From Chitinivibrionales bacterium (GTDB lineage Bacteria > Fibrobacterota > Chitinivibrionia > Chitinivibrionales > JANQEN01), in the NCBI GenBank assembly GCA_028278335.1, contig JANQEN010000210.1, forward strand, positions 35,765-99,764: a stretch of 64,000 nucleotides of DNA. Direction: 5' to 3'. Below, one piece after another: positions 35,593 through 41,339 of this stretch. Positions within the stretch are counted from its first letter, which is position 1, and each line of letters opens with the position of its first letter. The notes below the pieces were generated by a model. It ran no database searches. It saw only the letters and a list, made by a program, of their open reading frames with translations, and had not been told where the DNA came from. Both the position numbers and the translations under genes were made by a program.

Positions 35593-37077
35593 ATGAAATT
35601 CTTACTTCTGGTCACATCAAATCTTTTACTCTATTGTTTAACTTCTACGGCCCTTTCAAACCCAGACACTTTATGGACCAGGACCTATGGAGGATCTAAA
35701 TATGATTGCTGCAATGGTATAAAACAAACAAGTGATAGTGGATATATACTCGTAGGAAGCACGGAGTCTTTCGGCCAAGGGCTCAATGATGTTTACCTTA
35801 TTCACATTGACAAAAAGGGCGATACATTATGGACAAATACATATGGTGGCAAAGATGAGGATTGGGGTAATAGTATTGGATTAACCAAGGATGGAGGATT
35901 TATCGTCGCAGGTAGGACCAAGTCGTTTAACACATCAACATCTGATGTTTACCTATTACGAATAAAGCCGGATGGCGATACTCTCTGGACAAAGACCTAT
36001 TATAAAAATGGTCTCTCTGCTGATGTGGGCCTTTCAACACAACAAACAATAGATGGTGGGTTTGTTATTTTAGGTTGGACAGATTATTTAAATGAGCATA
36101 AAGACATATACTTAATTAAAACAAATTCAAGTGGTGATACTTTATGGACAAAAATTTATCGACATCATGTAGGATCTAGTGACATAGGATATTCTATATA
36201 TGAAACAACAGATAGTGGATTTATAATTGCCGGTTCAACATCACCTTTTAACTCAGGTTTTACTGATCTCTACTTAATTAAGACTAATTCAAAAGGTGAT
36301 ACAACATGGACGAAAACTTATGGGGGATATTACTTTGAACAAGGTTTATCAGTGCAACAAACCCACGATGGTGGCTATATTATTGCTGGAAGCTCCCTGT
36401 CTTTCGGTGCAGGAAATCATGATGTTTATTTAGTTAAAACTGATGCAAAAGGTGATTCACTATGGACCAAAACTTATGGGGGTGGGGATATTGACTTTGG
36501 GTATTCTGTTCAACAAACCGTCGATAAGGGATATGTTATTACCGGAAAGACTAGCTCTTTTGGTAATGGAGGTGAAGATTTATACTTAATTAGAACAAAT
36601 GAAATGGGCTCTGTTTTATGGACGAAAACTTACGGGGGATTTACTTCCGAATGGGGAAAATCTATGTGTCTGGTTGGAGATGGGGGTATAATAATATCAG
36701 GCGTCTCATATTCATTTGGCAATGGAGGAGGAGATGTATACATTGTCCGAATGGATTCCAATTCAATTGGGATCAGAGTTGATAACTTCAACAATCCTTC
36801 TCTGTTAAATAACGTGTCTATATCTCATGATTATTTATCCCACATTGTATCTGTTTATTTTAATCTTTCTCTCTCCAGTCGCGTAAAGATTGAAGTGTTT
36901 CATGCAAATGGCAAACTAGTTAAAACTGTGGTTGATGATTTTTTTAGTCACGGTAATCATGTCACAAGGTGGAATATAAGACAGAATCGGGATAGTTATT
37001 TAAGTAATGGTACCTATATACTAAGATTTCGTTCAAAGGAAATGGCAATATCAAAAAAATTAACTATTTTTTACTAA
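35593..37077 (+). CDS. Secreted repeat protein (DTLWTKTYGG repeats, propeller-like) with FlgD/T9SS-like C-terminus
   Basis: Signal peptide; recurrent GDTLWTKTYGG...GGYIIAGSTSSFG...DVYLIKTD units; C-terminal SRVKIEVFHANGKLVKTV. Confidence 0.8.
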   Translation: MKFLLLVTSNLLLYCLTSTALSNPDTLWTRTYGGSKYDCCNGIKQTSDSGYILVGSTESFGQGLNDVYLIHIDKKGDTLWTNTYGGKDEDWGNSIGLTKDGGFIVAGRTKSFNTSTSDVYLLRIKPDGDTLWTKTYYKNGLSADVGLSTQQTIDGGFVILGWTDYLNEHKDIYLIKTNSSGDTLWTKIYRHHVGSSDIGYSIYETTDSGFIIAGSTSPFNSGFTDLYLIKTNSKGDTTWTKTYGGYYFEQGLSVQQTHDGGYIIAGSSLSFGAGNHDVYLVKTDAKGDSLWTKTYGGGDIDFGYSVQQTVDKGYVITGKTSSFGNGGEDLYLIRTNEMGSVLWTKTYGGFTSEWGKSMCLVGDGGIIISGVSYSFGNGGGDVYIVRMDSNSIGIRVDNFNNPSLLNNVSISHDYLSHIVSVYFNLSLSSRVKIEVFHANGKLVKTVVDDFFSHGNHVTRWNIRQNRDSYLSNGTYILRFRSKEMAISKKLTIFY

Positions 37078-37209: not shown

Positions 37210-37560
37210 ATGACACACTCAAAAATTCCTGATTTCATCCTTGGCGTACGCTTTTTTGAAACCGAAAGTGGCTCGGAACCAGTTAGAGACTGGCTTAAAT
37301 CTCTACCTATGGAATATAAAAAAACTATTGGTGAAGATATTAAAACTGTTCAATATGGCTGGCCACTTGGCATGCCTCTTGTAAGAAAGTTGGAACCCGG
37401 TTTATGGGAAGTAAGAATTAATTTAAAAGACGGTATCGCGCGGATAATTTTTACCGTTGTTGATGATATTATGCTTTTATTACATGGCTTTATTAAAAAA
37501 TCACAACAAACACCTAAGGAAGAATTGAAAACTGCCAAAAATAGAAAGAAAAGACTGTGA
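37210..37560 (+). CDS. RelE/HigB-like toxin (Gp49 family)
   Basis: FFETESGSEPVRDWLKSLP...GMPLVRKLEPGLWEVRI...ARIIFTV...LLLHGFIKKSQQTPKEELKTA. Confidence 0.9.
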   Translation: MTHSKIPDFILGVRFFETESGSEPVRDWLKSLPMEYKKTIGEDIKTVQYGWPLGMPLVRKLEPGLWEVRINLKDGIARIIFTVVDDIMLLLHGFIKKSQQTPKEELKTAKNRKKRL

Positions 37561-37568
37561 GGCACATT

Positions 37569-37856
37569 ATGGTTGCAAGAAACAAACATGTAGGATCTGA
37601 TTTTGACAAATTCTTAGAAGAAGAAAGTATTCGTGATGAAGTTGAAACTGTTGCTCTTAAAAGAGTGATTGCCTGGCAGCTTCAGAAAGAAATGAAGAGA
37701 CTGCACATTTCTAAAACGGTTATGGCAAAGAAAATGAAAACAAGCAGATCTGCTGTTGACCGTCTTTTTGATCCGGAAAATGAATCTATGACACTTCAAA
37801 CTTTAAATAAGGCAGCAACAGCATTGGGAAAAAAACTGAAAGTTGAATTTATTTAA
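37569..37856 (+). CDS. HigA-like XRE-family antitoxin
   Basis: HTH MKRLHISKTVMAKKMKTSRSAVDRLFDPEN; immediately follows the toxin. Confidence 0.9.
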   Translation: MVARNKHVGSDFDKFLEEESIRDEVETVALKRVIAWQLQKEMKRLHISKTVMAKKMKTSRSAVDRLFDPENESMTLQTLNKAATALGKKLKVEFI

Positions 37857-38590: not shown

Positions 38591-40390
38591 GTGTTTGACA
38601 ATGCTAACATTCGAAATTTTTGCATCATAGCTCACATAGACCATGGCAAATCGACCCTTGCTGACCGGTTTTTAGAGCTAACGAGCACCATTACAAAACG
38701 AAATATGCAAGAACAGGTCCTGGATAACATGGAGCTGGAACGGGAACGGGGAATTACAATCAAATCCCATCCCATTCGTATGCTCTATAGGGACAGCAAT
38801 AATCAGGAATACTGTCTAAACCTTATCGACACCCCGGGCCATGTGGACTTCTCCTACGAAGTGTCCCGGTCCCTTGCTGCCTGTGAGGGTGCCATTTTAG
38901 TTGTCGATGCCATCCAGGGTGTGGAAGCTCAAACGCTAAGTAATATCTATTTAGCTTTGGAAAACGACCTCACCATTATCCCGGTGATCAATAAAATTGA
39001 TCTTCCTGCAGCACGAGTACCGGAGATTAAAAAGCAAATCGTAGAACTTTTAGGTGTATCCGAAGAGGAGATACTCCCCTGTAGTGCTAAAACTGGCCTC
39101 GGTGTCCAGGAAGTCATTGAACAGGTCATTGAAACGATCCCTCCACCAAAAGGGGTTAGTGAAAAACCGCTTCAAGCCTTGGTCTTTGACTCAGTCTATG
39201 ACTCATTTCGTGGGGTAGTTGCCTATGTGCGAGTCTTCCAGGGAAGCCTCAAGCAGGGTGATCAGGTCTTTTTCTTCTCCAATGGCAGAGAGTATGAAGC
39301 CTCGGAGATTGGCTATTTTGAGATGGGAAGAATCTCCCAAAAGAGCCTTGATGTTGGTCAAGTAGGGTATGTCATTGCCAACATTAAAAGTCTAGGGGAC
39401 ATTGAGATCGGTGATACGATATCCCTTAAAAGAAATCCCGCAAAAGAGCCGATTGCCGGCTATCAAGAGGTTAAACCCATGGTGTTTAGCGGGCTCTATC
39501 CCATTGACAAGGCAGATTATGAAAACCTGCGCACTGCCCTGGATAAACTCAAATTGAACGACTCCTCCATAAGCTTTATTCCAGAGACTTCGGAGGCCTT
39601 GGGCTTTGGCTTTCGCGGTGGCTTCTTAGGATTACTCCACATGGAGATTATTCAAGAACGACTGCTCAGAGAGTATAATGTAAATATTATCACCACAATA
39701 CCCAACGTAAAGTATCGGGTAACCCTCACCTCCGGCGAGGAACAGTATATAGAAAATCCCAGCAAGCTCCCAGCGGCAAATCAGATCCAGAGCTTATGTG
39801 AACCCATTGCCAAAGTACAGATCGTTACTCCCACCGAATACATTGGCCCGATTATGAAACTCTGCGAAGAGAAACGGGGCTCCATGGACATCATGGAGTA
39901 TCTTGAATCGACCCGGGTCTGCTTAAATTATCACATACCCCTATCCGAGCTTATTGTGGACTTCTTTGACAAACTAAAGAGCTGCTCCCGTGGCTATGCT
40001 TCAATGGATTATGAATTTGCCCGCTATCAGCAAGAGGATCTGACCAAGCTCGACATCCTCATCAATGGGACTCCGGTTGATGCCTTTTCCACGATTATCC
40101 ATCGGGACAATGCCTACTCCTTTGGACAGAGTATTGCCTCACGCCTAAAAAAGCTTATTCCTCGTCAAATGTTTGATGTGTCGATTCAAGCCTCAATTGG
40201 AACCCGCGTTATTGCCCGAACATCTGTTAAGGCTTATAGAAAAGATGTTACCTCAAAATGCTATGGCGGAGATATCAGCCGAAAACGTAAATTATTAGAG
40301 AGACAGAAAGAGGGAAAAAAACGCATGAAACATGTGGGTAATGTGGAGATCCCTCAGGAAGCTTTTTTAGCGGTTTTAACCAGGGAATAA
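38591..40390 (+). CDS. lepA: Elongation factor 4 (LepA)
   Basis: NFCIIAHIDHGKSTLADRF, DTPGHVDFSYEVSRSLAACEGA; full-length with typical LepA C-terminus. Confidence 0.97.
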   Translation: MFDNANIRNFCIIAHIDHGKSTLADRFLELTSTITKRNMQEQVLDNMELERERGITIKSHPIRMLYRDSNNQEYCLNLIDTPGHVDFSYEVSRSLAACEGAILVVDAIQGVEAQTLSNIYLALENDLTIIPVINKIDLPAARVPEIKKQIVELLGVSEEEILPCSAKTGLGVQEVIEQVIETIPPPKGVSEKPLQALVFDSVYDSFRGVVAYVRVFQGSLKQGDQVFFFSNGREYEASEIGYFEMGRISQKSLDVGQVGYVIANIKSLGDIEIGDTISLKRNPAKEPIAGYQEVKPMVFSGLYPIDKADYENLRTALDKLKLNDSSISFIPETSEALGFGFRGGFLGLLHMEIIQERLLREYNVNIITTIPNVKYRVTLTSGEEQYIENPSKLPAANQIQSLCEPIAKVQIVTPTEYIGPIMKLCEEKRGSMDIMEYLESTRVCLNYHIPLSELIVDFFDKLKSCSRGYASMDYEFARYQQEDLTKLDILINGTPVDAFSTIIHRDNAYSFGQSIASRLKKLIPRQMFDVSIQASIGTRVIARTSVKAYRKDVTSKCYGGDISRKRKLLERQKEGKKRMKHVGNVEIPQEAFLAVLTRE

Positions 40391-40397
40391 TCTGGTC

Positions 40398-41339
40398 ATG
40401 GATAAAAACTTAGTCTTAGATTTACGGAGGACGCTCTATGGCGCCCTTAAACTCTTTGCAATCATTGCGGTCATAAGCGTTCTTTTAAAAGTGACTTGTT
40501 GTGACACCATAGCAATTAAAACCGACCAGATGGCACCTGCGGTAATTAAGGGTGACCGGGTTATCCTCTCTAAAAAACAGTATGCACTACCCTTTAAACT
40601 CTTTTTTAAACCGCAGTATGATAACATCGTGGTATTTCGTCACCCCCATGCCCATGAAGCTTTTGGCTGTTTGCGCATAGTGGGAATGCCCGGTGATACG
40701 ATTTCGATCAGCAACGGCCTTTATGCAACAAGTGGCAATAGAGAAATCGTAAAAAAATCTCCACAAGCTGTGGAAGACCTGGTTCCTGCTGAGTATTCAC
40801 CCCGGGATAACCTGCTTCCTCTATATATCCCAAAAAAGGGTGACACACTTTTACTTAACACACTCAGTATCCGAAACCTTCTCTTTCTTTACTCAATAAT
40901 TCAACAGGAGAATCCTGGAGGAAGCTTCATACTCAAACCACAGCTGGCCATAGACGACTCTGTTTATCCAGATTTTTTAATTAGCGATTTTATACACTAC
41001 ACAGGAAAATTCTCTGCCATTCCCGACACCCTCTATAATGACTGGATTTTTTGGAGTAATCTAAAAAATTACCTTACCATGACCCAAGAGAAGAAAAAAA
41101 TTGATCTCAGTTTTATCATTGAAAAAGAGGGCTCTGCTATCACTTCCTATACTATAAGGAATACGTTTTACTTTCTTCTCTCCGATGATTGGGATCGTGG
41201 GTATGACTCTCGATACTTTGGGCCGGTGCAAAAGAATCTTATAATTGGCAAGGCTTCTGCCATTCTCTGGTCCCTCCCCCCAGGAAAGAGAGGTGGTATA
41301 ACCATCAACATGAGAAGGATCTGTAAATTGATAAAATAG
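40398..41339 (+). CDS. Signal peptidase I-like protein lacking the Ser/Lys dyad
   Basis: IKTDQMAPAVIKGDRVILSKKQYALPF...NIVVFRHP...CLRIVGMPGD...DSRYFGPVQKNLIIGKA aligned by eye with the LepB family. Confidence 0.82.
   Translation: MDKNLVLDLRRTLYGALKLFAIIAVISVLLKVTCCDTIAIKTDQMAPAVIKGDRVILSKKQYALPFKLFFKPQYDNIVVFRHPHAHEAFGCLRIVGMPGDTISISNGLYATSGNREIVKKSPQAVEDLVPAEYSPRDNLLPLYIPKKGDTLLLNTLSIRNLLFLYSIIQQENPGGSFILKPQLAIDDSVYPDFLISDFIHYTGKFSAIPDTLYNDWIFWSNLKNYLTMTQEKKKIDLSFIIEKEGSAITSYTIRNTFYFLLSDDWDRGYDSRYFGPVQKNLIIGKASAILWSLPPGKRGGITINMRRICKLIK

Follow-up and report, generated by a model that had tools for sequence, protein, structure and literature searches.

A signal peptidase I paralogue without its Ser-Lys dyad beside lepA in a Chitinivibrionales bacterium

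A few Gram-positive bacteria are known to have dead signal peptidases. In SipA of Streptococcus pyogenes (PDB code 4n31), both residues of the catalytic dyad are replaced, by Asp and Gly, and peptidase activity is undetectable; the cleft is conserved, and mutating residues at or near the dyad positions had no visible effect (PMC4049620). SipA is essential for pilus polymerisation, yet binding could not be demonstrated in vitro (PMC4049620). Staphylococcus aureus SpsA is a signal peptidase I homologue without the two catalytic residues, in a genome that also encodes the active, essential SpsB, and is described as dispensable (PMC12445088). Here we describe a gene to set beside these two. It comes from a Chitinivibrionales bacterium of the phylum Fibrobacterota and lies in a stretch of 64,000 nucleotides, which we call the window (GenBank assembly GCA_028278335.1, contig JANQEN010000210.1, positions 35,765 to 99,764 of the forward strand). 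The gene follows lepA and encodes a signal peptidase I paralogue with neither dyad residue. The literature we searched, which covered few subscription papers, yielded SipA and SpsA and no report of a lepA-linked dead family.

Residue numbering and roles are established for the Escherichia coli enzyme, LepB, in which Ser90 is the catalytic serine (box B) and Lys145 the general base (box D). Alignments of the window protein to E. coli LepB chains and to its own orthologues place other residues at both positions:

40398..41339, + strand: putative non-catalytic signal peptidase I paralogue, 313 aa, in an open frame; matches to PF10502 and TIGR02227 exceed the cut-offs, and E. coli LepB is the best match of its model among solved structures
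40527..40529 (CAG), + strand: Gln44, replacing the catalytic Ser (LepB Ser90)
40671..40673 (TTG), + strand: Leu92, replacing the catalytic Lys (LepB Lys145)
41172..41225, + strand: retained box E, FLLSDDWDRGYDSRYFGP, residues 259-276, in which Gly268 (41199-41201) replaces LepB Ser278

An earlier reading of the DNA letters by themselves (the sequence-only reading) had called the Ser-to-Gln change at about 40527-40529 and the Lys-to-Leu change in box D, and both calls hold. It had also described the downstream box as kept. That too is borne out, since DSRYFGPV...IIGKA is present and FLLSDDWDRGYDSRYFGP aligns with FMMGDNRDNSADSRYWGF of LepB, but Ser262 and Gly268 occupy the positions of Gly272 and Ser278, which means that the active site has lost more than the dyad. 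LepB Arg146 is kept as Arg93. Across the 28 orthologues we found in the order, the serine position is Gln in 27 and Leu in one, and the lysine position is Leu in 26, with one Tyr and one Met. Recurrence of the same Gln and Leu in independent genomes rules out sequencing error as their source. An intact dyad elsewhere in the protein, which would have undone the sequence-only reading, was not found: among the conserved polar residues of 27 orthologues there is no Lys or His suited as a base, and just one Lys or His is kept in at least 90% of them, Lys31, which lies on the N-terminal helix at its membrane end. We have high confidence, from these alignments, that the catalytic dyad is absent from the window copy. 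Loss of activity follows from loss of the dyad, and we infer that the protein would not cleave signal peptides.

Could some other group have taken over the chemistry, one near Gln44 for example, or a conserved Asp or Ser, so that a special substrate is still cut? Gln44 is almost fixed, and Asp53, Arg93, Ser134, Asp137, Asp270, Ser271 and Arg272 are invariant, which is what such a peptidase would lead one to expect. Yet no conserved Lys or His was found near the site, the Ser278 equivalent is lost as well, and the corresponding positions in sister families hold unrelated residues. SipA mutated at its dyad positions retained function (PMC4049620). We regard altered catalysis as very improbable.

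Membership of the S26 family is seen in both sequence and predicted fold. The product matches PF10502 in Pfam (79.2 bits against a cut-off of 22.9, E-value 4.6e-22) and TIGR02227 in NCBIfam (82.6 bits against 47). An AlphaFold model built with 27 aligned sequences has a mean pLDDT (predicted local distance difference test score) of 83.7, and a Foldseek search of the PDB with it ranked E. coli LepB first (E-value 7.4e-9), followed by SpsB of S. aureus and SipA of S. pyogenes (1.0e-4 for SipA). With moderate TM-scores (about 0.5 on normalisation by LepB, 0.67-0.70 by SipA) and large overall root-mean-square deviations, the match is evidence for the fold family and not for a detailed superposition. 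The window protein is, on these matches, a type I signal peptidase homologue, with a predicted LepB fold. Two further elements can be placed on it:

40404..40499, + strand: N-terminal helix, residues 3-34, a predicted membrane anchor (AlphaFold secondary structure), at the same position as in the intact paralogue
40785..41084, + strand: inserted domain, residues 130-229, common to the intact paralogue and the copies of Fibrobacter-type genomes (orthologue alignment, intact copy sequence and profile comparison)

The intact paralogue is the one other PF10502 gene found in the same genome, encoding 424 aa on a different contig (C119). It has KIPTGSMENSLLAGD and DYIKRCVAGPGQ, with both Ser and Lys present, and the two residues are kept in all 40 copies of the intact type that we read from the phylum. 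An intact copy was found in 25 of the 28 genomes of the order that carry the dead one; the three carriers where none was found are 90, 70 and 68% complete (G027, G033 and G038). The window protein has a signal peptidase fold that lacks the Ser-Lys dyad, and its genome encodes an intact peptidase at another locus, the combination by which we place it among non-catalytic signal peptidase-like proteins of the SipA and SpsA kind. A scan of named genomes with the single protein matched mostly intact peptidases of Bacteroidota and related phyla. In one Bacteroidota genome a second signal peptidase lies in tandem (L171:8353-9258); it has Asp at the Ser position and Gln at the Lys position (NDM, FIQR) and seems to be a dead copy of independent origin.

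That nearly all carriers also encode LepB raises the prospect of a regulatory partner: the dead paralogue would pair with LepB and alter its activity, stability or substrate choice, and would bind no substrate alone. The two proteins have the same inserted domain, and among pseudoenzymes it is common for a non-catalytic paralogue to regulate its active counterpart. On the other side, LepB is universal, so its co-occurrence is uninformative, and the dead and intact genes sit on different contigs. We consider a regulator rather unlikely.

Of 40 genomes of the order that we searched, 28 have the dead copy, counting that of the window, and the other 27 orthologues are 31-40% identical to the window protein. 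The position after lepA, noted in the sequence-only reading, is borne out by a gap of 7 bases between the lepA stop and the start of the gene, and the two genes directly adjoin in all 20 context loci that we read, of which sister families supplied two and the order 18. The dead copy is inverted in two genomes that belong to one genus, with lepA still adjacent.

38591..40390, + strand: lepA (elongation factor 4, EF4), the conserved upstream neighbour, with a LepA_C Pfam match

Pairwise ratios of nonsynonymous to synonymous substitution (dN/dS; Nei-Gojobori, some pairs near saturation) run from 0.14 to 0.30 for the dead copy, 0.05 to 0.16 for the intact copy and 0.07 to 0.11 for the Fibrobacter-type copies. 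Columns of boxes B, D and E average 3.05 bits against 2.37 over all columns, a value matched by 0.6% of circular shifts, and Gln44, Met45, Pro47, Leu92 and Arg93 are nearly or fully invariant in the order. From these substitution patterns we have high confidence that the copy is under purifying selection and is not decaying.

This bears on the idea of a relic, a copy left dispensable by duplication and disappearing lineage by lineage. Several lineages have no copy, one genome (G018) has a divergent one, Ser-box deletions occur in the genus-level group g34, and the branches are longer than those of the intact copy. All of this would suit a gene drifting towards loss, but those 28 genomes and about 90 of the Fibrobacter-type retain the full open reading frame, dN/dS is well under 1, the box residues are conserved above average, and purifying selection already contradicts it. 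We hold a relic to be improbable. A decaying copy of the only lepB, which would also have undone the sequence-only reading, is contradicted by the intact second gene as well as by the selection.

The phenomenon is phylum-wide by our alignments, wider than the sequence-only reading reported. Fibrobacter-type genomes (family f8) likewise have an S26 homologue next to lepA, picked up by profile search with strong scores in about 90 genomes. The 42 copies read from them all have Arg for Lys; Ser is kept in 39, the rest having Asp or Ala. Profiles of the window's order and of the Fibrobacter-type join over 251 columns, insert included (probability 98.9, E-value 1.2e-17). Three further families, all with the gene beside lepA, have Val/Leu (G041), Gly/Lys (G043) and Ala/Gly (G158) at the Ser/Lys positions, and the Ser box is deleted in g34 and one related genome, where lepA was not seen in the short stretches read. 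Families f11 and f14 have no similar gene that we could find after lepA. As read from these residues, the lepA-adjacent copy is broken across the phylum in different ways. Since G043 keeps Lys and the Fibrobacter-type copies mostly keep Ser, either the dyad was broken separately in the branches or a residue was regained; the tree requires at least four changes of state at Ser and at least two at Lys.

Fibrobacter-type copies (L106, L108-L111, L113, L146, L151) also have four invariant cysteines, C65, C70, C251 and C257 of the first row of their alignment, which are absent from the window's type and are possibly a pair of disulfides or a metal site.

The tree comprised 67 proteins: lepA-adjacent copies, intact copies of the phylum and peptidases from outside it. 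A branch with support 100/98 puts all lepA-adjacent copies and one divergent relative (L035) on one side, and the intact phylum copies and outside peptidases on the other; the phylum's intact copies group together (98/93). A recent duplication within the order, which would place its dead and intact copies together, was rejected (approximately unbiased test, p 0.002). With the outside peptidases as root, the tree is most simply read as a single duplication that took place no later than the base of the phylum. Attraction between the dead copies, whose branches are long, is possible.

What, then, might an uncutting signal peptidase do? The sequence-only reading had suggested a catalytically dead paralogue with another role, such as substrate binding or regulation. 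Dyad loss and selection support the dead paralogue with some role; which role stays a matter of inference. Our preferred proposal, which we put at an even balance, is an ancient, non-catalytic paralogue of signal peptidase I whose task is to bind exported peptides or partners and leave them uncut; we hold its binding role with moderate confidence. The protein would sit in the inner membrane with its signal-peptidase domain facing the periplasm. A stretch of an exported or membrane protein would be held, uncut, in the former peptide cleft or on the surrounding surface, and the dead copy would act as a chaperone, adaptor or assembly factor, as is thought for SipA. In contrast to SipA, Gln44, Met45, Pro47, Leu92 and Arg93 are nearly or fully invariant in the order, which favours the head of the cleft being still in use here. 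A broader version, held tentatively and a little short of an even chance, is a phylum-wide non-catalytic subunit or export adaptor that arose by a single duplication no later than the base of the Fibrobacterota, its dyad broken by different substitutions in different branches because its task would call for the cleft and not for cutting.

Several observations weigh against these proposals. Some of the strand residues that correspond to the LepB cleft are variable (positions 39, 41, 90 and 91), which makes it less than certain that a peptide would be bound as before. With Ser kept in most Fibrobacter-type copies, inactivity there rests on the change of Lys to Arg. The gene is missing from several near-complete genomes, which makes general essentiality unlikely, and its neighbours are housekeeping genes (lepA upstream; trp, aro, nadK and recN downstream) that indicate no pathway.

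Some features of the neighbourhood deserve mention in their own right. A chorismate mutase at 41385-42137 matches the plant/yeast-type model TIGR01802 (189.2 bits against a cut-off of 170.9) in a bacterial host, and homologues of it occur in most context loci of the order. In most relatives (L075-L087) the dead copy and the chorismate mutase are separated by genes that by eye resemble trpB and trpA; the corresponding place in the window has none. Upstream of greA, at 37210-37856, are adjoining small genes resembling by eye a RelE-type toxin and a helix-turn-helix antitoxin. A repeat protein at 35593-37077 ends in what by eye looks like a type IX secretion sorting tail. A link between the dead copy and type IX secretion is neither supported nor excluded by presence and absence, because SprA is found in 168 of 168 phylum genomes, carriers and non-carriers alike.

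How does the window protein compare with its described relatives? With LepB (S26; E. coli 1b12/1t7d and the intact copy of this genome, L001) it has in common the fold, the membrane anchor and the conserved boxes, and its gene adjoins lepA as E. coli lepB does, whereas the equivalents of Ser90, Lys145 and Ser278 are Gln, Leu and Gly. Given the lepA-lepB synteny and the family matches, the gene would be misnamed: an annotation as signal peptidase I would be wrong, the true peptidase being the other, intact copy and not the lepA-adjacent one. With SpsA, compared by description, it agrees in the absence of both catalytic residues and in the presence of an active peptidase in the same genome. With SipA it has in common the signal peptidase I fold and the replacement of both dyad residues, a similarity seen only at the level of the common fold. 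SipA is a Gram-positive pilus assembly factor whose dyad-position residues differ between species; the window protein is lepA-linked among housekeeping genes in a diderm phylum, has a large insert, and has Gln and Leu nearly fixed in its order. If our reading is right, an ancient, conserved, lepA-linked family in such a phylum would suggest that the non-catalytic use of this fold is broader than those Gram-positive examples.
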